A stretch of DNA of 30,781 nt from a virus, in the IMG/VR virus record IMGVR_UViG_3300025128_000205, positions 1 to 30,781 of that record; one strand, 5' to 3'. Of the stretch, positions 4,015 to 29,713 are shown piece after piece (the first letter of the stretch is position 1; each line of letters begins with the position of its first letter). The notes beneath the pieces were generated by a model. The model was not told the origin of the DNA. It did not search any database and saw only the letters and a program-made list of their open reading frames with translations. The position numbers and the translations under genes were made by a program.

Positions 4015-4509
4015 TCATTTTTTACTTTTTAAATATTCATTATATTCATTCCAATTAAATACAACATTCATTTCAGCCAACTTATTTAAATCTTGTGTGT
4101 TAGTTGGATTAGCATGTACTGTTACTATTACACAATCTTCTATTGCGTAAACAATTCTTTTTGCTCCTTGCGGTGATATAATATAACATGGAGCTATAAA
4201 TTCCTCTACACCATCTTCTTTTGATGATGCTAGTAATCCTGATAATAAAAAGAATCCATAACTATGTTTGTGTATTGCTGAAAAACCTATTTGACCTTTT
4301 TTCATTCTCATTTCTCTAATATAAACACCTTCTGGAAAAGAATGTTTATATTCCCACATATCGGGATAGATTAATTCACTCCCATTTCCTACTACTATAT
4401 CCTTTCCATCAGCTATACTAGTTAAATAACTTTCTATTTCTTCAACTTTATCTTTATAAGATTTAACAGGTATATTGTCAAATATTTTTTGTAATTCGTT
4501 TTTAGGCAT
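4015..4509 (-). CDS. Cupin-fold protein (164 aa)
   Basis: A single small beta-barrel with cupin-type motifs. Motif 1 is KKGQIGFSAIHKHSYGFFLL (70-89), containing H80 and H82 but with Phe where the usual Glu sits. Motif 2 is ISPQGAKRIVYAIEDCVIVT (111-130), with PxG present, Arg in place of the usual His, and H132 just after it. Metal binding by H80, H82 and H132 is possible, but the altered ligands make a classical enzyme uncertain. An N-terminal helix (VEEIESYLTSI) precedes the barrel. The gene lies between tail and internal protein genes, so it could modify or cap virion proteins or sugars, or be a non-enzymatic structural barrel. The stop is TGA, so TGA is not reassigned here. Confidence 0.68.
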   Translation of the reverse strand: MPKNELQKIFDNIPVKSYKDKVEEIESYLTSIADGKDIVVGNGSELIYPDMWEYKHSFPEGVYIREMRMKKGQIGFSAIHKHSYGFFLLSGLLASSKEDGVEEFIAPCYIISPQGAKRIVYAIEDCVIVTVHANPTNTQDLNKLAEMNVVFNWNEYNEYLKSKK

Positions 4510-4563: not shown

Positions 4564-7500
4564 TTAAGCTGATGTTGAGAGAAGTTTTTCAATATCAAAT
4601 CTTAACGTTTGATCAGCGGTACCCGCTTTGATTATTTCTATATTACCAGTTATAGTTGCCGTTCTACTTGTATTTTCTACTGTTAATGTGGTACCACTTT
4701 CTAAATCTTGAACTGCATCAGCGGTCCAATTACCAGCACCATCAGCTCCACCACCACTAGTAATTAATGGGTTTTGTACGGAAGATTTAATCCCAATACC
4801 ACCTATTCTAGACACATTATTAATAACACCTTCTCGATCAGCTACAGGTATTGTAGCGCTGCCAACTACAGCTGATGTTGTAGTAGTAGTTTGAGCAGTC
4901 AATGTAATCGCTAAATTACTAAATTTAACTTCCCAATCAAGTAATCGTAATATTTCACCTTCACCATAACCTCCAACTTTTATTGTATCGCCAGCTAAAG
5001 CTAAAGGTTGTTGGTTATTAAAAACTATATCTCCTGCTTGCACTGTAACTAATCCTTCTACTACTGTTGGTGTTTTACCAACTGTACTTACTGCAGGTTT
5101 TTCATTAATTATTGTTTGTTTTCTAAACTCTGTTCCATCCATAGTTACTAATCTATCTATATAAGGTTTTATTGTTGAGCTTGTTGTAACATTTGTACCT
5201 GGCACAATAATCATGTCTTCTTTAAGTTTATGTGCAAAATTATTTATTGGCCAACTATAATTCATTTGATTACTAAAACTTAATGTAGCCCCATCACGAA
5301 CACCAAATCTAGAACTTGTTCCACCATCCTCATCTACGTAAGAAAATTCTTTAGCGTTATCGCTATCTGGATTTAACTCTGCTACTGTGAATAACTCTCT
5401 ATTACATTTTGGGGTAAAAGTTAGTGTTTCACCATCGCTTAAAGAAACCGCTTGTGACATTGAGAACTCTTTAACATTATCACCATCTGGATTTAAAGCT
5501 GCAACCGTTACAATTGTTGCACTATTATTATTTAAAAGAGCATGAGGAACCCCTGATAAAGCAGCTGTTATTCTATCTCCAACAGCCATTTTTGTAGCAA
5601 CATTATTGTCCATGACTACTTTAACTCCACTAGAAACAGCACCGTCTACTGTATCTGTTAAATCAGTTGTAGCTATAGTTATTTTATCACCAACTTTCAT
5701 TTTATCCGCAACATTAGTATCCATAACGATTTTAGTTGCAGTTGTAGTAGCTCCGTCAACTGTATCTGTATTATTAACAGTTGGATATATATTTTCTCCT
5801 GGCAAAGTGATTGGCGCAGCTCCAATAACAGGTGATACAAAGGCTAAAACATCACTACTTGCTGGTTGTTTTATAATTCGATACGCGGCTGTTGTTCCTG
5901 CTAATATAGATGTCGAAAAGGCTGTCGCCTCTTTTGATTTATTTCTAAAAACCGTTAAAGTACCATTAGTACCAGTACCTGCTACAGTTGAGTTTGGTGA
6001 ATATGGACTTAATGTTAACGTTAAAGTAGTATATTGATATATAATTTTTTGCATTATTGAAGAATTAGAACCAATAGAGCTATTTAAATCAACGGTACCA
6101 TCGCCAAATCGTTCTTCAATACGAGCAACATGTCTTGTACCTGCTTTAGCATGTAAGTAAATATCATAATGATCATTATCAGTTACAGTTGGAAAGACTA
6201 TACTATCTTTATACGAACTATCAACTAACTTACCTTCCAATACTGATTTCGCAGCTTGAAAAGTGTCGTTGTAAAAGTTATAATAATAATTATCTTCATT
6301 TCTTATTTCTAAAATAAACTCCGCTCCAATATCTCCAATTATTTCTACATTTCTAGTTTCAGTTGTACTAGATAAATCACTTAAGTCTAATTTAAAACTT
6401 GTTATAACTTTTTCTGATAAATCACCATATACTTCTTGAAATTGATCTACTTTTATATATCGACCATCGGATCTACGAACGTAACCATCAATATTATTAT
6501 CACCACGTGGAGATATTATTGGTTGAAGAATTGGATCTGTTGGGATTGGACCACCAGTACCCCCACAACCACTATTTATACAATTTTGTTCAGTCGCGTA
6601 CTGACCTTGCATAGGCCAAATTCTTTCTATACATTGTTGCATACCTCCCCAAGTATCATATAAACTAACAGGAGATACTTCTCCAATATTTGGAATCGAA
6701 GTTACGCAATCCCAAGAAGAAGTAACTTCACAAGCAGCTTCACAATCAGCTAGTGTAGTATATTGTCCATTACCAGTTTGAGGATCATAACACCCTCCAG
6801 TAGATGGATTACAGTCCCAAGAATCTGGACACCAGCACTCTTTACAATCATTACAACTAAGTGCATATGGTGGTGTACCACTAAACGTTGGATAATGCAC
6901 AATAGGCACTTGCATCCAACCAGTAACGGGAAAGTGTCCATCGTACGTTATACAATAACCTGGCTCTACGCCCCAACAAGCGTTTTCTGTCATAGCTATT
7001 GTATCACCTGGACTAAGGGCTGTTACTCCTAGTTGAGTTATTACATCAGTATAAAACGCTTCTATCCATAAATATTGATTATTTAATGTTGCCGCATTAC
7101 CAGCTGGAGTTCCACTTCCAGTGCCACCGCATAGTGCGTAGTTTGCTCCCCATGCTGGACTACAATTTGGATCCCAAGTAGGATCTAATGCTGCTATATC
7201 CATAGCGGTATATGAGCCTATATTAGCGTTTACATAATATGGGTAAGGGGCAATTGGTGGGACTTGATAATGATTAGTCGCGGGCATATTAGGACATATA
7301 GTCCAAAATGGCATCATCGTTCCACCTCCTTTTGTTTGTTTTGCAAGTTTATTTACTTCAGCGGGAACTGTATATATAATCGGTTCTTCAGTACATTCTC
7401 CACTTAATTTAGCTTGTATATCTTCAGGTGGTGTCTCGTTACAATCACAAACTTCAAGTAATGTTGTTGCCCAAGAAATACGAGTTTGGTGCCATAATAA

Positions 7501-7989
7501 TGAGTCTAATCCAATACCTGAAGTCGGAGGAGGTGTTAGGTATTGAGCTATATAGTCTTGATCACTAATAATAATATCTCTTAACACTTGACATCCAGTT
7601 GGTTGAGAAGGATCAGGTGTATATACACCATCTGGACCTAACACGAATTTATCCCATGCATATTGTATATTCCATTCAAAAGACGATCTAACAAGAGCAG
7701 GATCAGGTTGATTTGTTGTATCAACTAAAGGCCATAACAGTTCATCTGCTAAAGCTAAAAAATACGCGTGAGTACATGTCCCAGTTGGAGATGGAGGTTT
7801 TGGGGGTTCAGAATCTATATATTTATTTTTTCCCTCTCCTTTTCCATTACCGCTACCGAATAATGACGCATGTTCAGCATCGGACATAAGTGTACCATCT
7901 GGCATATAATGAAAACCAGCAGGAGCGGCTTGTCCCTGAGCATTTGTCGTGCTTTGTCTCGCGCTACTAGGTATATTGTGATATGACAT
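4564..7989 (-). CDS. Large tail-associated structural protein with Cys modules (1141 aa)
   Basis: The N-terminus contains AGFHYMPDGTLMSDAEH (24-40), a motif I know from marine phage virion proteins. Residues about 60-385 form a Trp/Pro/Cys-rich region. Two cysteine modules follow at about 391-423 (WDCNPSTGGC to LADCEAAC) and 426-475 (WDC to NCINSGC). Residues about 500-665 are a recognisable beta-domain (SFKLDLSDLSSTTETRNVEI, then FPTVTDNDHYDIYLHAKAGT and SSIMQKIIYQYTTLTLTLS) widespread in uncultured marine phages. Two pairs of internal repeats lie at 741-905. The C-terminal quarter is Thr/Gly-rich and beta-helical in appearance. A fibre or tail-collar role is likely; no enzymatic motif was seen. 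Confidence 0.68.
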   Translation of the reverse strand: MSYHNIPSSARQSTTNAQGQAAPAGFHYMPDGTLMSDAEHASLFGSGNGKGEGKNKYIDSEPPKPPSPTGTCTHAYFLALADELLWPLVDTTNQPDPALVRSSFEWNIQYAWDKFVLGPDGVYTPDPSQPTGCQVLRDIIISDQDYIAQYLTPPPTSGIGLDSLLWHQTRISWATTLLEVCDCNETPPEDIQAKLSGECTEEPIIYTVPAEVNKLAKQTKGGGTMMPFWTICPNMPATNHYQVPPIAPYPYYVNANIGSYTAMDIAALDPTWDPNCSPAWGANYALCGGTGSGTPAGNAATLNNQYLWIEAFYTDVITQLGVTALSPGDTIAMTENACWGVEPGYCITYDGHFPVTGWMQVPIVHYPTFSGTPPYALSCNDCKECWCPDSWDCNPSTGGCYDPQTGNGQYTTLADCEAACEVTSSWDCVTSIPNIGEVSPVSLYDTWGGMQQCIERIWPMQGQYATEQNCINSGCGGTGGPIPTDPILQPIISPRGDNNIDGYVRRSDGRYIKVDQFQEVYGDLSEKVITSFKLDLSDLSSTTETRNVEIIGDIGAEFILEIRNEDNYYYNFYNDTFQAAKSVLEGKLVDSSYKDSIVFPTVTDNDHYDIYLHAKAGTRHVARIEERFGDGTVDLNSSIGSNSSIMQKIIYQYTTLTLTLSPYSPNSTVAGTGTNGTLTVFRNKSKEATAFSTSILAGTTAAYRIIKQPASSDVLAFVSPVIGAAPITLPGENIYPTVNNTDTVDGATTTATKIVMDTNVADKMKVGDKITIATTDLTDTVDGAVSSGVKVVMDNNVATKMAVGDRITAALSGVPHALLNNNSATIVTVAALNPDGDNVKEFSMSQAVSLSDGETLTFTPKCNRELFTVAELNPDSDNAKEFSYVDEDGGTSSRFGVRDGATLSFSNQMNYSWPINNFAHKLKEDMIIVPGTNVTTSSTIKPYIDRLVTMDGTEFRKQTIINEKPAVSTVGKTPTVVEGLVTVQAGDIVFNNQQPLALAGDTIKVGGYGEGEILRLLDWEVKFSNLAITLTAQTTTTTSAVVGSATIPVADREGVINNVSRIGGIGIKSSVQNPLITSGGGADGAGNWTADAVQDLESGTTLTVENTSRTATITGNIEIIKAGTADQTLRFDIEKLLSTSA
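5268..5508 (-). repeat. Second repeat pair in the 1141-aa protein
   Basis: Two copies about 40 residues apart start at residues 828 and 868: TVAALNPDGDNVKEFSMSQ and TVAELNPDSDNAKEFSYVD. Both then run into a GETLTF or GATLSF strand. The period is 120 bases. Together with the preceding repeat this shows stepwise growth of the shaft-like region. Confidence 0.85.
5548..5769 (-). repeat. Tandem 37-residue repeat in the 1141-aa protein
   Basis: Two adjacent copies, residues 741-777 and 778-814, each begin TDTVDGA and contain KIVMDTNVADKMKVGDKIT or KVVMDNNVATKMAVGDRIT. The DNA period is 111 bases. They look like duplicated small beta modules rather than a recent copy, since the bases have diverged. 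Confidence 0.85.
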
Positions 7990-8002: not shown

Positions 8003-8362
8003 TTATTTACTACTTTCTGTAATTTCTGAACTAACACTAAAAAGCTCTATATCACCTTCTGACCAATTTACAAATCTTGCAAGAGCATAGTAACCTAATA
8101 AACTAGATGTATTTACTATTTTGTCTTTTGCAAAAGATATATAAGAACCTATTGGTGGAGCACTTACAAAACTATCATTATATAGAACTGTTATAATATT
8201 GTTATTAATAGCTGTTATAGTACCCAACAATACGGTGTTTTGTAGATCAGCATTATTAAAACCACCAAGTAGTCCGCCACCAGTTGTATAAAAAACAACA
8301 TCTCCAACTTGTACGGATATGTTTATACTATTAAAAGTTAAATCTATGTTTGCTAATGGCAT
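8003..8362 (-). CDS. Small virion structural protein (119 aa)
   Basis: The protein is beta-rich: NISVQVGDVVFYTTGGGLLG (14-33), TVLLGTITAINNNIITVLYN and a C-terminal FAKDKIVNTSSLLGYYALAR followed by ELFSVSSEITESSK. The 'VGDxVYY...GTIT...FSKDKxVNxSSLLGYYAxxxFVN...ELFSVxSEvxESSK' pattern is one I remember from structural proteins of marine phages, often beside large tail proteins, although no function has been assigned. It lies between the giant hub and the 1141-aa tail protein and probably helps join them or forms a small barrel subunit in the tail. Confidence 0.65.
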   Translation of the reverse strand: MPLANIDLTFNSINISVQVGDVVFYTTGGGLLGGFNNADLQNTVLLGTITAINNNIITVLYNDSFVSAPPIGSYISFAKDKIVNTSSLLGYYALARFVNWSEGDIELFSVSSEITESSK

Positions 8363-8381: not shown

Positions 8382-11300
8382 TTAATTTGCTCCACATGCT
8401 GAATTACATGAGGCTAGAGAGCTATAGGTAGCTCCACTACATACCGGCGTAGTTCCACAAGCCTGTCCTTGATAACATTCCGTACACGGTCCATTACCTC
8501 CTTGAGGATCACACTCCCACCATACCGCTGTTGGATAATAACAATCCCCACTATCATAATTTGCGCTTGGATTGTAATTACAAGCGTTACCATCTGTACA
8601 TCCTTCAACAACCCCTGGATGCTCGTCCCAATCATGAGCTGTACCAAACGTAAATACATGCCATATACCGCACGCGGCAGTTGAAGAAGAGTTAAGTCCG
8701 TAATTAACACCGCCTTTTTCGGTATAAACTTCTACAGCATATTCTTGTTCGTCTGAAGTGAATGTTGTGCTTACTCCGGGTTTGTAAACATCAAACTCAT
8801 AATTACTAGCATCATCATGAGCTGGACCCCACGGATAAGGATTAAACGGCGCTGGATCTTCTCTATCCCCAAGTATCGCCCCATTAGGAGATGTCGCATT
8901 TGCAAATCCATCAGTTGTATTACTTGGATCAATATGTTTTATAACAGGTGTTATATTCCAATTTCCGCTTGGATCTCTTTTCCAAAGTTTTACTACAACA
9001 TGATCTCCAGAGTCATACTGTGCCTGCATATTAGGGAGTTGAGAAGTTATACGTAATCCAATATCTTGTTCACCATATTGGGTAATCATTCCTGGAACGG
9101 TTGAACATTCTGGACAACCAATAGGATATTGAGTACCACTTGGTGTTGTCTGATGTAAGTAGTGTTTAACTGTATCTGAAGGATCTGGCGCATATTGATA
9201 GTAATACATTGGTTGAGGTTGCGTAATTGGCTGCCCACTAACATCAACAGCATTTGGATTACCTATGGTAAGACTTTGGAATCCCCATATACATGAACCA
9301 TCTTCCTCATCGGCAGTTGGATCGTAATTACATGCTTGTCCAGGTATTTCATCTCCTCCGTATATAGATGCCCAAGTAGAAGCACTTAAAGCTCCACCAT
9401 CTCCAATTGCAGTGAACCAGTTATTCATATTAGTACCACCACGTGTACAACCTGATGAAGGTGCATAAACACAACTACCATCATCTACTGTAGCACAAGC
9501 TAAATAATTCAGCGCTGTTGGATCAGTACATCCAAAATAATTACAACTACCATCATCTACAAGAGTCCAATTACCAGGTAAATTACCTGGATTTGGATCA
9601 CCATTACCACCATACAAATTACATGCATTAGGATCAGTACATCCATAAACAGTATAGTCACAACATTGTGTTCCTGGGCTACTATCATCACATGCTATTG
9701 TGCAAGAAGCAGGATAATATGCTTGTGAAGCTGTATTATACGCTTGACATCCATCATTTGGAGATCCGTAATTATCTGCTATAGGGTCCATACATCCAGC
9801 ACAAGTAGTCCATTCACAACTACCATCATCTGTATATACTGATGAATCATAATTACAAGCTGTTGCATCTGTACAACCAAAAGTATTAAAAATACAAGAA
9901 CCGTCATTAACACTAACATTATCACTACACGGTGTTAATGAACCAGCATTTATAGCTGTTGCACAATCATGATTCATCGCAAGAGGGAGATTACAACCAG
10001 GTATAATACAACCATCGTCCCAACCTGGATAACCAACAGGGGTATTTGCATTGAAATTCGTAGCATAATAAATCGCACATCCAGACGGCCAAGTACATGA
10101 ACCATCATTAATAGTTATTCCGGCACTAGCATCATACTCAGTAGCTGGATAACCAGGCCATGTAGATACTATAGGATTTCCTGTTGCATCATAAGAACCA
10201 GTAGCGCCAGTACCACTATCACCACTATCTGGACAGCCAACATCCACACAACTACCATCGTCTATCATACCATATCCACCAGAATTATTATACGGTACGT
10301 AAGTTAACGCTGCATCTGGCCAAGCGGTACCTTGATCTGGACCATGAGCAGCACCAAGATGGTAAAAGCTAGATAAAGGGTTGGTACAACCATACCATGT
10401 ACAATAACCAGGATCAAAGTTAGCAAGAACATCAAAATTAGTAGCAGATTCCTCCGTACATCCATAATAAAGATCAACACAACTACCATCATCAAAGTTC
10501 GCATTTGGATCATAGTTGAATGCACCGTCAACCCAAGAAGGACTTACACCATTACAATATTGACCAGGATTTTGTGATTCCCAATAAGAACCACAATCTG
10601 TACAACCTGGAATTGTTGCAACGCAATTACCATCATCTATTATACTCGCACCCTGGAAGTATGTGTATGCTATTGAAGGAAATGCAGTTGTATTCTGGCA
10701 ACCCTCAGGGTATGACCATGCAGGAAGACAAGTACAACCTGTCCAAAAACAACTATTATCATCAGTATTAACTGACGCATTAAAGTTACTTGCGGTAGGT
10801 TCCATACAACCGTTTACTATAGCTTCACAACTCCCGTCATCAATTGTTGCCATGTCATTAAAGTTAAACGCAGTAGGATCTGTACATCCAAGAGGATTTG
10901 ATATTACTGGAGCTACATTTAATATACCAATACCTTGTACTGCAAAACTATCTTGATCAAATGAAGAATTCCCGTCTTGATTAATAACAATTTGATTATT
11001 TAGACCGGTAGAAATAGGAACTCCTTTTATATAATTAAACCATTTACCTTCTTTTTCTATAAATTCATCTACAGATCCAGTTTCCATGTCTGTTCTTATT
11101 TTATCTACATACCACCCGGGTTGATCTTGTAAATTATAATATTGATCATCTTGAAAATTAGGAATAATTCTTGACTCAGTACCTTCGTAGTTTAGTGTTT
11201 CGAAAGATTTAACTATACTAGGAAAATCATTTAAATAAACTGATACTGAAGAATATGATGGAGTACCATAAAAATTATTTCTATTAACATTTTCATCATG

Positions 11301-14300
11301 ATGTCTCCACGCTTTACCTTCTTTAAAAGTATAATATTGATTAGCGCAACTAATACCGTATTCTGGAATAAAAGATTTAAAACTAACCCACCCTTTTACA
11401 TCTTCTCTAAACGTAACGGTTTCAGAAGAAAAAGAATTGTTTGAATTTATAGTAATATTATATTCTTCTTTTTTATCATCGTAACTTCCTGGATAAAATT
11501 TATTATCAACTAAATTATCTTTAAACCAATCTTTCATACCGTGATCAGATATAGGTGTTAATCCATCTTTTGATAATCTCATTATAGAACCTCTTGTTTT
11601 ATCAGTAAAATATGCTCTATAAGCTTCTGACGCAAATGATTCTGGATTTTTAGATATACCATATTCACCAACAAAAGGTATTGTTTGTCCCAATACATTT
11701 CCAGTAGCTGTTAATTGAAGATTTCCATCAGCATTAAATACAGCGTCTTTATCAGCTAATATTTTTAAAACTTTATCTTCACATAAAGTAACTAAGTCTG
11801 TATTTCTAGAATGTAATTTTTGAATACTACCATATATAGGATTTATATCTTTTGTAATTTTCTCAGCAGTAATAAATTGATTTAAATTATTAACTCCAGA
11901 TGTAGAGTTATATATACCAGAGTGTATTAAACCATATTTTCTATGTTCTTCTTCGTAATCTTTTTCAAGAATTGTTGATACTTTAACTCCTTTACCTAAT
12001 ATATCAGAATTAAAAGTATCAGATATTCTATCAGACTCTACTCCATTTCCAAAAGCAAAGCAATTATGCCAAGTTAATCCAAAGTTATTATTATAAATAT
12101 TAGGATCTACTATTATATGACCCAAACTTGTTGAATCTTCAGCAACAACTACTGTTATATAACTACCGTCAGAGTTTGTAATTTTAATAACATCATCTTT
12201 TAATAAACCACCACCATTTGATGCTGTAACATACATTCTACTCATGTTCGTTTGAAAGTAAGCAAATCCGCAATCATCGGGAATAATCGCGCCACTAGCA
12301 CAGTCATAACAACTTATAATAGCTCCATATTCTAGACCTAATTGAGAAACTGTATCAAAACGATTAAACATTTTTATTGGATAACTTTGTGAAGCCTCAT
12401 AATATAATTCTAAATCTGCAGGATCTGGTGGTATTGTTTCCCATATAGCTGGATTTATAGATGCTTCATATTCCGGTTGTCCAAACCCAGCACTACCCCA
12501 TAATGACTGCATAATCATACCTATATTCATCGCGTGATGCGCGGCGTATATCATCCAATTTCCAGGTTCTAAATCTATAACATTTCCAAACGCTATATCT
12601 CTATTTGTCGCGGTACCTGATGATGGAGATGATTGAGTTGGAACATATCCAAGTCTAGTTGACCCATCTTTATTTGTCCATATAAGCGGGTCTATATCAA
12701 TCATATTACTCCACTTTGGATTATTTGGATCTGCTTGATCATAAAATGCCCCATGTGTTTGAGGACACGTTTGCATTACAGTTGTTCCACCCGCATAACA
12801 ACCATTATCAAAAGTAGGTGGATATTGCACTGCGGGATCATAATTAGGATTAGGAACAATTCCAGTTACACTATAATCTAATGGCCAAAATGTATAATGA
12901 TGAGCATATACCGGCGTACCATTACAACAAATAGCTCCACTAGTATTTCCGTTTCCAGCTACAGCGTGATTATAAGTTTCGTCTGGAGTTCCTCCTGCAT
13001 CTACATATTCTTGTGGTGTTATTATACCTTGATCTTGTACTGTAGTACCAATGACTTGGTCTAATAATAATTCATATCTAACTCTATGTACGCCACTTGA
13101 ATTTGACCAATTCCAATGATAAGCTGCTTTTCCCGCAGTATTTTCACAATCGAAATCATTATATACATTTGTAATATTTTCAACTATTCTATAATCTACA
13201 ATTTTATATACAATCTCTCCAGGATCTCCATTAAAAATAAATGGAGCATTAAAACTTGTGAGAAAATCATGTGTTTGTTGATTAATAAATTCATCAAAAT
13301 CTACAGTACCACCCATATAATCTGGACCAACGTAGGATATATCCATTCGTTTACTCCCTATTCTAGCACCAACACCAGGGGTATTCATTAAACCTCTATC
13401 ATTACTTCCGTTATCTGGACTTGCAGAGGTACCATCAGCTTTTTCATAATATACCTCAACTCCATTATTCCAACTTTTTGCAGGAAAATTCATGGTTGGT
13501 TCCATATCAATAAACCAATGACCCATACCCGTGTGATCACCAGTTTGATCCGCAAAGGATTTCCAAAAATCTCCACTTCTAACAACGCTACGAGTATAAT
13601 GAACTTTATAAGGTGGGTTAGTATGTGGAGAAGAAGAGCCAAATACCTCGTCATAACAACCCGCTGTTTGAAAAGCACCTAACATATAAGGATAATCTTT
13701 AGGATATATATTAGTGGGAGCAACATTTCCAATAGGATTTGGATAGTTAGCATTATCATATCCATGTGACCAAGTATTACCACCGTGTGACATATGCCAA
13801 AATTCATTTCCAACAACACTATTTAAAGTTATATCACGCCAACGTGGATCCATAAAAGATTCTCCCTTCCTATAATCAGCGTTTGTACCAATTTCAGAAA
13901 TACCATTATAATCTTCATAAGCAGGATTATTAACAGTAGGAAGGAAACCAAATCCACCACCATTATTACCATATGTTTGGAATGTGCCTATATTAGGATT
14001 TGATCCAATATCCCAATTTGGATTTCCTGGGGAACTTAAGTAATTATTAAATGCAGCTTCAGTATGATGTTCCCCATCGTAACGTAAAAAACGTGCTGAT
14101 AATATACCTATAACAGAATAACCCCCATCATATTCATATTGTAAAATAGATTGTTCTAACGCGGAGTCTTTAAGAATTTTAACAAAAAATCTACCGTCAA
14201 AAGCAGCGTATGGTGTTTCAACACTTCTAGCTATTTCTATCGCAGCGCCATTACAAAAAGCACCACTGTTATCCATAAATGCCATATCATCGCCAAAAAC

Positions 14301-16964
14301 TCCATGTATTTTAACTGCTAGTGTACTCGTACTATTTGCCACGTACGTATCCATTACTGATATTTCATACCAATTAGATGTTTGTTTTTGAACTGTTGTC
14401 TTTTGAAATCTCAACCACATCTTTTTAAGATTAGATTCTTCCCAATCTTCAAAAGCATGTATCAAATCACTACTACTACTATCAAGAGCTTGATTAGATA
14501 AATATATAGCGTTTGCCATGGGAACCGGCGGTGTTGTTCCAAGGAGATTGTAACTAGCATGTGATTCTATACCATATGATATTTTAGTATTTTTAACGAA
14601 ATCAGGAACCTCATTTGATATAGCTATAACTTTATATTCTGCGGTGTCTGTTATAGCTATATTACTATTAATATTCTTTTTTAATATTATAGTACTTTCT
14701 TCTGTAAGTTTATTCCTATCTAATGATGGAAAACTCAACCAAACATTACCATCCTCTGCATTATACCATCTATCCATTGCTAAATTATAATATTCAGTAG
14801 ATGGTTCTTTAATAAAAAAACGAAAAGAATCTGCCCATGGAGGTGGATCATTTATTATTTTAATATCTATTAAATTTGTATTACCAGATTCTGATTTAGG
14901 TACTTTTAAAGTAGATTGACTACTTGTCATAACGGGAGATTGCCTACCATATTTATCTTCAAAAACTACGCCAAATTGGTATTCTCTTAATGATTTTATC
15001 GATCGTAATGGTGTTACAAGAGTTCCATCCCACTCATAAGGATGTTCGTAATAACCATATAATGGAGATCCATCTTGTTTTTTTGTATGGGGAGCTAAAG
15101 ATATATCAAACCTGGGTTTAGCATAACTAGCTAGTGTTGTATAATTTTGTTTATAATTACCATAAACAATTCTACTACCCGTTATTTCTTGCGCACGTGC
15201 TACTTTAGGAATATTGTCATAGTGTCTTAAAATTTGATTTTCAGCAATAACAGCATATATTAATTCTGAATCAATAATATATTCATTATTATTCCAATGC
15301 CCAGTACCATCATTAGGTTTTATTTGATCTACAAGATATATATTAGAAGATCCAGATTCTTTGTATAATATGTCTATTTGAATTACGCCATCTGGAATAT
15401 TAGGAGGTTTGATATTTGTTAGCGTAGCTTGCTTTAAATGATTTTGCATACCAACATTGAGTCCTTTTTTTGGTTGATAATCCCATGATAGAGGAACAAA
15501 TGCTGTTTGAGTAAATGGAGAAAATACAGAATATTCATTGTCTTGATATTTATATCTAAGTCCAAATTTTGGAAATTTAAACTTAAATATATTATCAACA
15601 TTATTTATTTTTAAATCAATTAAATAATCAAAATTTCCAATTAAAGTTTTAGGACTTATAGACACTATCTCAATTTGCAAAGTAGTTGTGAATACACCAT
15701 TCGCATCAGGGAGAGATGACGGAGCACCTGTTGATGTTATTTTTCCTACAACAAGAGGTTCTCTAAGTGGAAACCTAATCTCTACGTCTTCATCTGGTTT
15801 TCTTTCAATAGCCACAAGATCACCAACATTAATATCAAGATTATTCTGAGTGCCAAGAGGTGTTAGTCCATTCGATATACTATGTTTTACCCATATCCAC
15901 ATAGAATCTCCTGGAATTAATAGTTCACCAGGATTATTTGAAACATCCTCAAAAGTAGTTTCAAACATACCCATAGTAGCTTCTGATGGTTTAGTAGATT
16001 CTAACGTCATAGATGGAGGAAGTTTTGGTGCTTCTTTAATGACAGTTATGTGCTTTTCTTCTACTGGAACACTAGTACCTAGTGTTTCATTTATAAAATC
16101 AGTATGTGTAAATATATTAGTAGTTCCTAATATAGATCTAGGTATATTAATTTTTTTAGGTTCAGAACCTACTAACTCGCCGTTAGAATCATAATGTCCA
16201 TCAACCCAAAACAACATATCATCAATAATATTTAATCCAGTTACTAATATATCGCGCTTAAAACTTAACACTGGTTTATTCCAAGATGCTAATGCATACC
16301 ATGAGAATTGAGGAATTACTCCGCCAAAAACTTCAGTAAGCATTTCCCAAAATGGTACATTAATCGTAACAATACCAGTTGAAACATCTACATTTGTAAT
16401 AATACCATTAAATTCTAATTCTTCAAAAACACCATTAGAACTTATATCACCATAAATATTTGTAATATTCATTCCTTGAGCTAAATTTGCTAAATTAGCA
16501 TCACTTGGATCGAAATGTAAATGCGTAAGAGTTAATGAATTATTATTTCCATCAGCGGGCGTAAACATTGCACTAGAGCCGGTTAATATTGAAGATTGTA
16601 TGTCTACAAATACAGGCGTTATTGAATTTTCTTTATACTGTAAAATCATGTTTTTTACAGTAGCAGCAGTACCGCTCAAATCATTAACAATCGATTCATT
16701 TATTAACCAATAAAAAGTATCGTTTTTTTCATCAGAAACAGCCCCAACACAAGTAGCGGTACCACTCATTCCAATTGCATTTGGTTGATAATTAGGGGAT
16801 AACATCGCGTTACCTAATAAATTTTGAACAGTACCTATGTCAGCAGCTTCTGAGGTTGATACTTGTATATTTCTTGCATCCCAATATTGGCCGTTTGGAA
16901 CAAGTCTTTCATCAACATCCTTGTTCATTTTACCTCCAGTAAAATTATGTTTAATTTCTGGCAT
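8382..16964 (-). CDS. Giant tail hub/stabilisation protein with Cys-rich adhesin-like C-terminus (2860 aa)
   Basis: The N-terminus (HNFTGGKMNKDVDERLVPNG, 5-24, then WDARNIQVSTSEAADIGTVQ) is the signature I know from P22 gp10-like DNA-stabilisation/hub proteins of marine phages. These are beta-propeller-like and close the tail end. The fold seems to resume around 1600-1990 with KYGLIHSGIYN, DKTRGSIMRLSKDGLTPISD (about 1780) and GWVSFKSFIPEYGIS (about 1855). Between them a very long beta-rich region may be inserted, enlarging the protein several-fold. Residues 2026 to about 2810 carry 15 GC...DDGSC modules, interrupted by a 228-residue domain (about 2560-2787), and the end is a further Cys module (2810-2860). 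I infer a hub fused to an outward-facing receptor-binding or structural arm. Confidence 0.75.
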   Translation of the reverse strand: MPEIKHNFTGGKMNKDVDERLVPNGQYWDARNIQVSTSEAADIGTVQNLLGNAMLSPNYQPNAIGMSGTATCVGAVSDEKNDTFYWLINESIVNDLSGTAATVKNMILQYKENSITPVFVDIQSSILTGSSAMFTPADGNNNSLTLTHLHFDPSDANLANLAQGMNITNIYGDISSNGVFEELEFNGIITNVDVSTGIVTINVPFWEMLTEVFGGVIPQFSWYALASWNKPVLSFKRDILVTGLNIIDDMLFWVDGHYDSNGELVGSEPKKINIPRSILGTTNIFTHTDFINETLGTSVPVEEKHITVIKEAPKLPPSMTLESTKPSEATMGMFETTFEDVSNNPGELLIPGDSMWIWVKHSISNGLTPLGTQNNLDINVGDLVAIERKPDEDVEIRFPLREPLVVGKITSTGAPSSLPDANGVFTTTLQIEIVSISPKTLIGNFDYLIDLKINNVDNIFKFKFPKFGLRYKYQDNEYSVFSPFTQTAFVPLSWDYQPKKGLNVGMQNHLKQATLTNIKPPNIPDGVIQIDILYKESGSSNIYLVDQIKPNDGTGHWNNNEYIIDSELIYAVIAENQILRHYDNIPKVARAQEITGSRIVYGNYKQNYTTLASYAKPRFDISLAPHTKKQDGSPLYGYYEHPYEWDGTLVTPLRSIKSLREYQFGVVFEDKYGRQSPVMTSSQSTLKVPKSESGNTNLIDIKIINDPPPWADSFRFFIKEPSTEYYNLAMDRWYNAEDGNVWLSFPSLDRNKLTEESTIILKKNINSNIAITDTAEYKVIAISNEVPDFVKNTKISYGIESHASYNLLGTTPPVPMANAIYLSNQALDSSSSDLIHAFEDWEESNLKKMWLRFQKTTVQKQTSNWYEISVMDTYVANSTSTLAVKIHGVFGDDMAFMDNSGAFCNGAAIEIARSVETPYAAFDGRFFVKILKDSALEQSILQYEYDGGYSVIGILSARFLRYDGEHHTEAAFNNYLSSPGNPNWDIGSNPNIGTFQTYGNNGGGFGFLPTVNNPAYEDYNGISEIGTNADYRKGESFMDPRWRDITLNSVVGNEFWHMSHGGNTWSHGYDNANYPNPIGNVAPTNIYPKDYPYMLGAFQTAGCYDEVFGSSSPHTNPPYKVHYTRSVVRSGDFWKSFADQTGDHTGMGHWFIDMEPTMNFPAKSWNNGVEVYYEKADGTSASPDNGSNDRGLMNTPGVGARIGSKRMDISYVGPDYMGGTVDFDEFINQQTHDFLTSFNAPFIFNGDPGEIVYKIVDYRIVENITNVYNDFDCENTAGKAAYHWNWSNSSGVHRVRYELLLDQVIGTTVQDQGIITPQEYVDAGGTPDETYNHAVAGNGNTSGAICCNGTPVYAHHYTFWPLDYSVTGIVPNPNYDPAVQYPPTFDNGCYAGGTTVMQTCPQTHGAFYDQADPNNPKWSNMIDIDPLIWTNKDGSTRLGYVPTQSSPSSGTATNRDIAFGNVIDLEPGNWMIYAAHHAMNIGMIMQSLWGSAGFGQPEYEASINPAIWETIPPDPADLELYYEASQSYPIKMFNRFDTVSQLGLEYGAIISCYDCASGAIIPDDCGFAYFQTNMSRMYVTASNGGGLLKDDVIKITNSDGSYITVVVAEDSTSLGHIIVDPNIYNNNFGLTWHNCFAFGNGVESDRISDTFNSDILGKGVKVSTILEKDYEEEHRKYGLIHSGIYNSTSGVNNLNQFITAEKITKDINPIYGSIQKLHSRNTDLVTLCEDKVLKILADKDAVFNADGNLQLTATGNVLGQTIPFVGEYGISKNPESFASEAYRAYFTDKTRGSIMRLSKDGLTPISDHGMKDWFKDNLVDNKFYPGSYDDKKEEYNITINSNNSFSSETVTFREDVKGWVSFKSFIPEYGISCANQYYTFKEGKAWRHHDENVNRNNFYGTPSYSSVSVYLNDFPSIVKSFETLNYEGTESRIIPNFQDDQYYNLQDQPGWYVDKIRTDMETGSVDEFIEKEGKWFNYIKGVPISTGLNNQIVINQDGNSSFDQDSFAVQGIGILNVAPVISNPLGCTDPTAFNFNDMATIDDGSCEAIVNGCMEPTASNFNASVNTDDNSCFWTGCTCLPAWSYPEGCQNTTAFPSIAYTYFQGASIIDDGNCVATIPGCTDCGSYWESQNPGQYCNGVSPSWVDGAFNYDPNANFDDGSCVDLYYGCTEESATNFDVLANFDPGYCTWYGCTNPLSSFYHLGAAHGPDQGTAWPDAALTYVPYNNSGGYGMIDDGSCVDVGCPDSGDSGTGATGSYDATGNPIVSTWPGYPATEYDASAGITINDGSCTWPSGCAIYYATNFNANTPVGYPGWDDGCIIPGCNLPLAMNHDCATAINAGSLTPCSDNVSVNDGSCIFNTFGCTDATACNYDSSVYTDDGSCEWTTCAGCMDPIADNYGSPNDGCQAYNTASQAYYPASCTIACDDSSPGTQCCDYTVYGCTDPNACNLYGGNGDPNPGNLPGNWTLVDDGSCNYFGCTDPTALNYLACATVDDGSCVYAPSSGCTRGGTNMNNWFTAIGDGGALSASTWASIYGGDEIPGQACNYDPTADEEDGSCIWGFQSLTIGNPNAVDVSGQPITQPQPMYYYQYAPDPSDTVKHYLHQTTPSGTQYPIGCPECSTVPGMITQYGEQDIGLRITSQLPNMQAQYDSGDHVVVKLWKRDPSGNWNITPVIKHIDPSNTTDGFANATSPNGAILGDREDPAPFNPYPWGPAHDDASNYEFDVYKPGVSTTFTSDEQEYAVEVYTEKGGVNYGLNSSSTAACGIWHVFTFGTAHDWDEHPGVVEGCTDGNACNYNPSANYDSGDCYYPTAVWWECDPQGGNGPCTECYQGQACGTTPVCSGATYSSLASCNSACGAN
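8535..10889 (-). repeat. Fifteen Cys-rich GCTD...DDGSC protein repeats
   Basis: Protein-level repeats within residues 2026 to about 2810 of the hub protein. The core is GC(T/M/N)DPxAxNYxxxAxxDDGSC; the best copies start with GCTDPTAFNF, GCTDATACNYDSSV, GCTDPTALNY and GCTDGNACNYNPSA. Core length is about 24 residues, but several copies carry loops of 10-35 extra residues before the DDGSC. Each copy has a first Cys after Gly and a last Cys after Asp-Gly-Ser, likely a disulfide pair, and the Asp-Asp-Gly turn could bind calcium. At DNA level this gives recurring CCATCATC and GGATCxGTACATCC blocks. Confidence 0.9.
8604..9290 (-). other. Inserted non-repeat domain between Cys repeats 14 and 15
   Basis: About 228 residues (2560-2787 of the hub protein) interrupt the repeat array. 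The segment has alternating beta-strand patterns (LRITSQLPN, DHVVVKLWKRD, YEFDVYKP, QEYAVEVYTEKG, CGIWHVFTFG), few cysteines and no repeat core. It reads as a beta-sandwich, Ig/CBM-like domain, which would be a natural receptor-binding head. Fold assignment is a guess from strand pattern only. Confidence 0.5.
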
Positions 16965-28915: not shown

Positions 28916-29713
28916 TTACTGTGCTTCTATATAGTCGAATATTTCTTTTCTATCAGCTGAACTAGCAGCCGTACCATCCCATATTAGTATATCTTTTATG
29001 AATCCATGAAAATTAGAAGTATCATCAGCGCCAGCTCCTAGATTGCTTATAGTTATTTCTCCAGTGGATTGTGCCTCACTACCAAACTGCGTTCCTGTTG
29101 CAGTTCCATCAAAATAACCAGAATCAGCGCCTCTAATAAATAAATTTACATTACCTGTAGATCCATCACTTCTAACAATAATCAAGGTAGTATATTTATC
29201 TGTTGCGAGGTTACTACTAGCTAAAGTAAAATCAGTATTACTAGCATTAACCCTTAGCCTTACAACAGTATTGCTATTTAATCTTACAAACTCAGTACCA
29301 TCTGAACCAAATAAGCAACCAGGAGTTGAAAAATCATCAGCTTTAAATCTTATAGCTATTGTAAAATCTGTGTTAGCATCTAAAACAACATTTGCAGAAA
29401 GATCCATATACTTAATAGCATTGTGGAAATTTACAGATCCTAAATCTGCAGCGTCAGTTTCCCATAAAGGTTTATCAGCCGATGTTGTTTGCACTGCATT
29501 TATACTAGTATTACCAAATGCATTCCAAGCGTTAATTTTATCAAGGTCCGCCATGTTTCCAGCTGCCGTGCTGTGAGTAATAGAAGTACCGCTAGAATCT
29601 TGATCTGCAGTAATGTTTTCATTAACCTTTAACCACAAAGATAGATTTGATAAACTTTCCGGTGTCCATCCAAACGCTGCGCCACCTGTTATACTATTTC
29701 CTAGTCCTAACAT
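28916..29713 (-). CDS. LamG/concanavalin A-like virion protein (265 aa)
   Basis: Probable beta-sandwich carbohydrate- or protein-binding domain of the LamG/concanavalin A-like superfamily. The pattern fits that fold: an N-terminal segment around SLSLWLKV (about 24-31), a central strand pair with DFTIAIRFKAD (about 121-131), then VRLRVNAS, LIIVRSDGS, NLFIRG and a terminal strand FIKDILIWDG (about 238-247) followed by a short helix. This FTIAIRF...YTTLIIVRSDG...G.IKDILIWDG order is typical of LamG-type lectin domains in phage fibres and adhesins. There is no signal peptide, as expected for a virion protein. It is coupled to the upstream gene by a TAATG overlap. Assignment rests on fold-like pattern, not on a search. 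Confidence 0.6.
   Translation of the reverse strand: MLGLGNSITGGAAFGWTPESLSNLSLWLKVNENITADQDSSGTSITHSTAAGNMADLDKINAWNAFGNTSINAVQTTSADKPLWETDAADLGSVNFHNAIKYMDLSANVVLDANTDFTIAIRFKADDFSTPGCLFGSDGTEFVRLNSNTVVRLRVNASNTDFTLASSNLATDKYTTLIIVRSDGSTGNVNLFIRGADSGYFDGTATGTQFGSEAQSTGEITISNLGAGADDTSNFHGFIKDILIWDGTAASSADRKEIFDYIEAQ

Follow-up and report, generated by a model that had tools for sequence, protein, structure and literature searches.

The locus raises two questions: what kind of virion protein carries a long series of small cysteine modules, and what such a series might do there. We analysed the whole of a 30,781-base virus record, referred to here as the window, in which all features given below lie on the (-) strand. 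The modules are borne by an intact ORF of 2860 aa (8382-16964) with homology to the nozzle/gate, or muzzle, proteins of crAss-like podoviruses. A regular expression recovers exactly 15 GC...C units, as the original prediction had it, at residues 2026-2808, corresponding to nucleotides 10889 down to 8541 (8535-10889 in that prediction). The 15-module array is real and far above chance: a strict module pattern occurs 8 times in the muzzle ORF, whereas 5000 shuffles of its residues gave 0.008 on average and never more than 1, and 56 of the 70 cysteines of the ORF lie after residue 2000. All 15 modules are present, but they do not form one contiguous array. Fourteen fall within residues 2026-2558 (9291-10889), a stretch delimited by pattern, shuffles, array alignment and cysteine statistics, whereas the fifteenth stands alone at residues 2788-2808 (8541-8603), parted from the others by a 229-residue, predicted all-beta domain (residues 2559-2787; 8604-9290). 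Behind it come 52 more residues (2809-2860; 8385-8540), again rich in cysteine but different in kind.

The carrier had been taken for a tail hub, an assignment that we replace, since the array sits on the muzzle and 'tail hub' names a different protein in the crAss001 nomenclature. The ORF matches phrog_14478 (E=3.2e-125) and is homologous to gp97 of Cellulophaga phage phi38:1; its homologues in isolated phages, namely Cellulophaga phi38:1 and Calle and the Flavobacterium elemo phages, are all without an array. A conserved core of residues 1-2015 (10920-16964) is traced by tblastn and blastp to these phages and to IMG/VR relatives. Within it, the muzzle C-terminal domain crAss_MUZ_C (PF25729; residues 1894-1980; 11025-11285) is matched with 24.7 bits and E=3.2e-5, just below the Pfam cut-off of 27. 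Upon examining the 14 aligned muzzle members, which comprise the window and its relatives, we find the same domain in 13 (best E=1.1e-18), and one relative (L010) scores 53.7 bits with the long crAss_MUZ model, which is over the threshold. Membership of the Crassvirales-type muzzle proteins is indicated through the family and is marginal for the window ORF by itself. In the structural block the muzzle gene follows the terminase, portal and capsid genes and the small virion (ring-type) genes, in the same order as in phi38:1 and the elemo phages. A Pfam scan of the ORF gave no BACON domain, and no PDB chain matched at E<=1, either with the single protein or with the 14-member profile. Pfam and an inspection of the N-terminus revealed neither a Por_Secre_tail match nor a hydrophobic signal, so the protein is not of the T9SS-secreted type. 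The muzzle of the gut phage crAss001 sits at the tail tip as a hexamer, where it acts as the gate of the tail and is believed to touch the cell surface (PMC10172136). By analogy the window muzzle would also form a hexamer, and the tail would then bear six arrays, which may begin close to the tail barrel and not at the tail tip.

In a comparison of what follows the conserved core in 70 ORFs, we observe one attachment point for arrays, right behind the muzzle C-terminal domain; in the window it is a junction or spacer ending ..SFAVQGIGIL.. (10890-11024). Many array-less muzzles run straight into a last domain ending ..GYYA.V....ELFSV.SEVTESSK. In the window this domain is encoded as a separate gene of 119 aa (8003-8362), the product of which is homologous to the fused C-terminus of five array-less muzzles (L010, L012, L014, L024 and L082), and phrog_18548 covers both pieces, the muzzle and the separate last domain. 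The separate gene is also found behind the array in the other array phages having enough sequence, which points to a split muzzle whose last domain is made in trans. Four array-less phages (L011, L016, L042 and L054) also encode the last domain separately. Other splits were seen as well: a sister group of six phages has a second break in the muzzle after residue ~281, and most of the six bear cysteine modules on the N-terminal piece; in two further phages (L021, L026) a split near residue 1840 places the array on the second piece.

The domains found behind or within the arrays are unrelated between phages, being LRR (LRR_4, 1.8e-7), fn3 (1.1e-7), Lcl_C (6.9e-6) or the all-beta domain of the window. 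The latter is shared with three relatives (L001, L015 and L018; blastp, 32-35%), and its AF2 model, of low confidence (pLDDT 49), consists mostly of strands. Judging from these matches, array ends are exchanged between phages.

Next, we investigated the modules themselves, comparing the six compact modules of the window with their counterparts in related phages, in other phages and in bacteria. The core, to which these six conform, is GC-x(18)-C with A, N-Y/F and D-D-G-S positions, and both core cysteines are present in 605 of 605 matches of a pattern that does not demand cysteine. Additional cysteines come in specific combinations, Cys8 co-occurring with Cys16 (odds ratio 12, p=1.5e-29) and with a linker cysteine (p=2e-24), both p-values being inflated by shared descent. 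This linked conservation of core and extra cysteines points to disulfides, and the pairing within modules that had been proposed thereby gains support from co-variation. Modules 1-2 are predicted as small loops with short strands (pLDDT 92-96). Disulfides in a virion had been considered unusual; they stabilise the tail of crAss001 (PMC10172136), and oxidation after release would therefore not be exceptional. The best PDB sequence match of the module is the EGF-like hinge of perforin-2 (MPEG1; chain residues 330-354 of 6u2j, profile E=4.2e-4; domain layout in PMC6989145), which is also the sole, weak match of a Foldseek search against the PDB (E=2.2, prob 0.51). In BFVD the top structural match is a crassvirus muzzle C-terminal domain-containing protein of Virus NIOZ-UU157; the modules also resemble parts of giant-virus MACPF proteins (Terrestrivirus, Orpheovirus).

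These data bear on a reading in which the cysteines, instead of forming disulfides, hold a metal: zinc or iron, in the reducing environment of the cytoplasm, or calcium, bound jointly with the aspartates. Such a reading would suit a muzzle that has no signal for secretion and therefore has to reach its fold inside the cytoplasm, and the DDG stretch of the module, which is reminiscent of calcium loops, was counted in its favour. It sits poorly with extra cysteines that co-occur in specific pairs, with related modules in secreted proteins and in perforin-2, which works outside the cytosol, and with TSP3_bac (PF18884), which gave 0 matches in the window, and we regard it as improbable. The same result ruled out the TSP3-type calcium repeat as the identity of the modules. 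Taking together what is directly observed, namely the position on the muzzle, the single junction, the separate last-domain gene, the swapped far ends and the linked cysteine conservation, we consider it probable that the array is a modular, disulfide-stiffened stalk on the muzzle C-terminus, displaying exchangeable host-contact domains.

We also examined where else the modules occur. That similar repeats exist in surface proteins of marine Flavobacteria was stated in the original prediction, and we do find close matches in secreted or surface Flavobacteriales proteins with T9SS sorting domains, so the modules are not confined to phage proteins. The bacterial modules belong to proteins of Flavobacteriales, Saprospiraceae and Chitinophagales, and to a few archaeal and other genome bins, and all scanned bacterial module proteins have a T9SS sorting domain (L083 and L089 by Pfam; L083, L089 and L106 by NCBIfam). 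Their distribution is patchy, with modules in 3 of 296 genomes sampled from the phylum. Six of the bins are labelled as marine archaea, Anaerolineales or Firmicutes, and are either real or misbinned. Among viruses, IMG/VR holds at least 570 confirmed module stretches; upon inspecting complete viral module ORFs with crude patterns, we observe a hydrophobic N-terminus together with a T9SS-like end in many of them, and others are muzzles. Several compact modules of the window have bacterial best matches. Overall, the modules appear to form a pool shared with host T9SS exoproteins, in which they are probably also repeated spacers. Many IMG/VR contigs encode module proteins with a signal peptide and the T9SS type A sorting domain TIGR04183, and viral genes of this type often adjoin one recurring small gene cassette; Cryophage provides a precedent for phage T9SS cargo, termed unique there (PMC7468147). 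Searching the annotated phage collection with the array region by tblastn matched no phage, and at the module level annotated phages gave weak matches in S-CAM3 and one single-cell virus. In cyanophage S-CAM3, two shortened modules lie in a virion structural protein (L252, 3569-5119). No Pfam or NCBIfam model matched the module, common though it is in the sampled marine Bacteroidota and phage sequences, and a literature search with its motif letters found nothing relevant.

The next structural gene of the window (1141 aa; 4564-7989), of which residues 527-1141 are conserved in relatives and residues 1-526 are variable, contains a second kind of cysteine module, WDCNPSTGGCYDPQTGNGQYTTLADCEAAC (WDC...C...GQYTTLADCEAAC; 6730-6819), 69% identical to a Flavobacteriales protein (L083). 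In one protein (L146) this WDC module and GCTD modules occur together. Elsewhere in the window, one ORF appears cupin-like by eye (4015-4509) and another jelly-roll-like by eye (28916-29713), the latter without a match in an NCBIfam search.

The presence of the modules in host proteins had suggested that the phage has acquired or mimics host modules. When whole arrays were scored against permuted module order, the window array aligned in order with those of seven phages (L001, L015, L018, L025, L002, L005 and L006; z 4-7), and it was not collinear with that of L033 or with any of the three bacterial arrays tested. An order kept with divergent phages and with none of the tested bacterial arrays, for modules that are common in phages too, argues for an established muzzle appendage and against recent capture. 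Two other approaches were set aside: rank correlation of single modules between arrays, which was uninformative as compact modules are all alike, and assigning origin by nearest-neighbour classes, in which the window modules scored slightly better against other muzzle modules, yet individual best matches were often bacterial and 21 residues are too short to give a direction of transfer.

On the muzzle tree, array presence clusters but changes repeatedly; with a quick method, the well-supported branches require at least 5 changes. In the one close pair compared for selection (L008/L030), identity is 95-98% in the core (dN/dS 0.10) and 82-93% in the array region, where dN/dS is 0.31, a value not above 1. 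These results fit an old appendage that has been gained and lost, under what seems to be weaker yet still purifying selection. Repeated gain and loss, together with widely varying C-termini and the existence of phages that live without an array, could also be expected of a recombination-prone stretch without a specific function that rides along where the end of a split gene tolerates it. We find this very unlikely given that module order is kept among divergent phages (z 4-7), that the dN/dS of 0.31 denotes purifying selection, that the cysteines are invariant, and that array phages having enough sequence retain the separate last-domain gene.

The faster evolution of the array region relative to the core in L008/L030 is also relevant to a different function, in which binding would be done by the modules themselves, through variable loops that contact host polysaccharide or protein, with the array giving avidity, not reach. 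Only 6 of the 15 window modules are compact, at 21 residues; the other 9 differ from this length within an overall range of 17-54 residues, mostly via added loops, with up to 33 extra residues. Long modules make up 20% in muzzle arrays, against 5% in bacterial and 1% in other phage arrays, but this excess is confounded by sequence sampling and is not significant under matched sampling (p=0.08). Bacterial modules are mostly compact, and several phages (among them L004 and L031) combine mostly compact modules with a separate terminal domain, and binding through the loops is accordingly the less expected role, one we would call unlikely. Loop elaboration as a signature of muzzle arrays was withdrawn after the matched sampling.

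In the stalk reading that we favour, disulfides would form in the modules once the cell has lysed or the virions are released, and interchangeable domains held by the stalks would touch the outside of a marine Bacteroidota host cell, a contact that would help adsorption and perhaps the opening of the gate. More tentatively, and with rather less confidence than in the stalk itself, we propose a split gate design in a widespread marine crAss-like group. Supplying the last domain from a separate small protein would free the C-terminus (in the sister group, the N-terminal piece after residue ~281) to carry disulfide stalks that are hot-swappable and bear interchangeable host-contact domains; their modules would come from a pool common to phage virions, to T9SS exoproteins that phages encode and to the exoproteins of hosts. 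These findings suggest that the host-contact diversity of marine crAss-like phages sits on the gate protein, at a defined junction, and offer a rule for predicting such appendages, with the last domain in trans and the array at the junction. They also place one module family in two settings, secreted bacterial proteins and virions assembled in the cytoplasm.

Among known systems, gp97 of Cellulophaga phi38:1 and the structural proteins of the Flavobacterium elemo phages share with the window a homologous muzzle and the same gene order, and differ in being without an array and in having the last domain fused. The crAss001 muzzle gp44 (PMC10172136) resembles the window protein in its homologous C-terminal domain, its position in the structural block, its nature as a large tail-end protein and its insertions that vary between phages; in contrast, the window has a separate last-domain gene and an appended array of ~780 residues, and no cysteine-module array is described for gp44. 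The perforin-2 hinge is a single module in an animal MACPF protein, and its relation to the array modules is suggestive only. Marine Flavobacteriales T9SS proteins have the same 21-residue GCTD...DDGSC module, the tandem arrays and the cysteine pattern, although they bear a signal peptide and a sorting domain and the muzzle has neither. Finally, the crAssphage tail carries tandem repeats of BACON, a domain of Bacteroidota surface proteins proposed to serve in host binding or linking, the repeats being partly old internal duplications (PMC6949934). By analogy, the array of the window would work like these repeats, yet it is not BACON: the latter has an Ig-like beta-sandwich fold and belongs to a different protein of the tail region, whereas the window has a 21-residue, putatively disulfide-bonded module on the muzzle itself.
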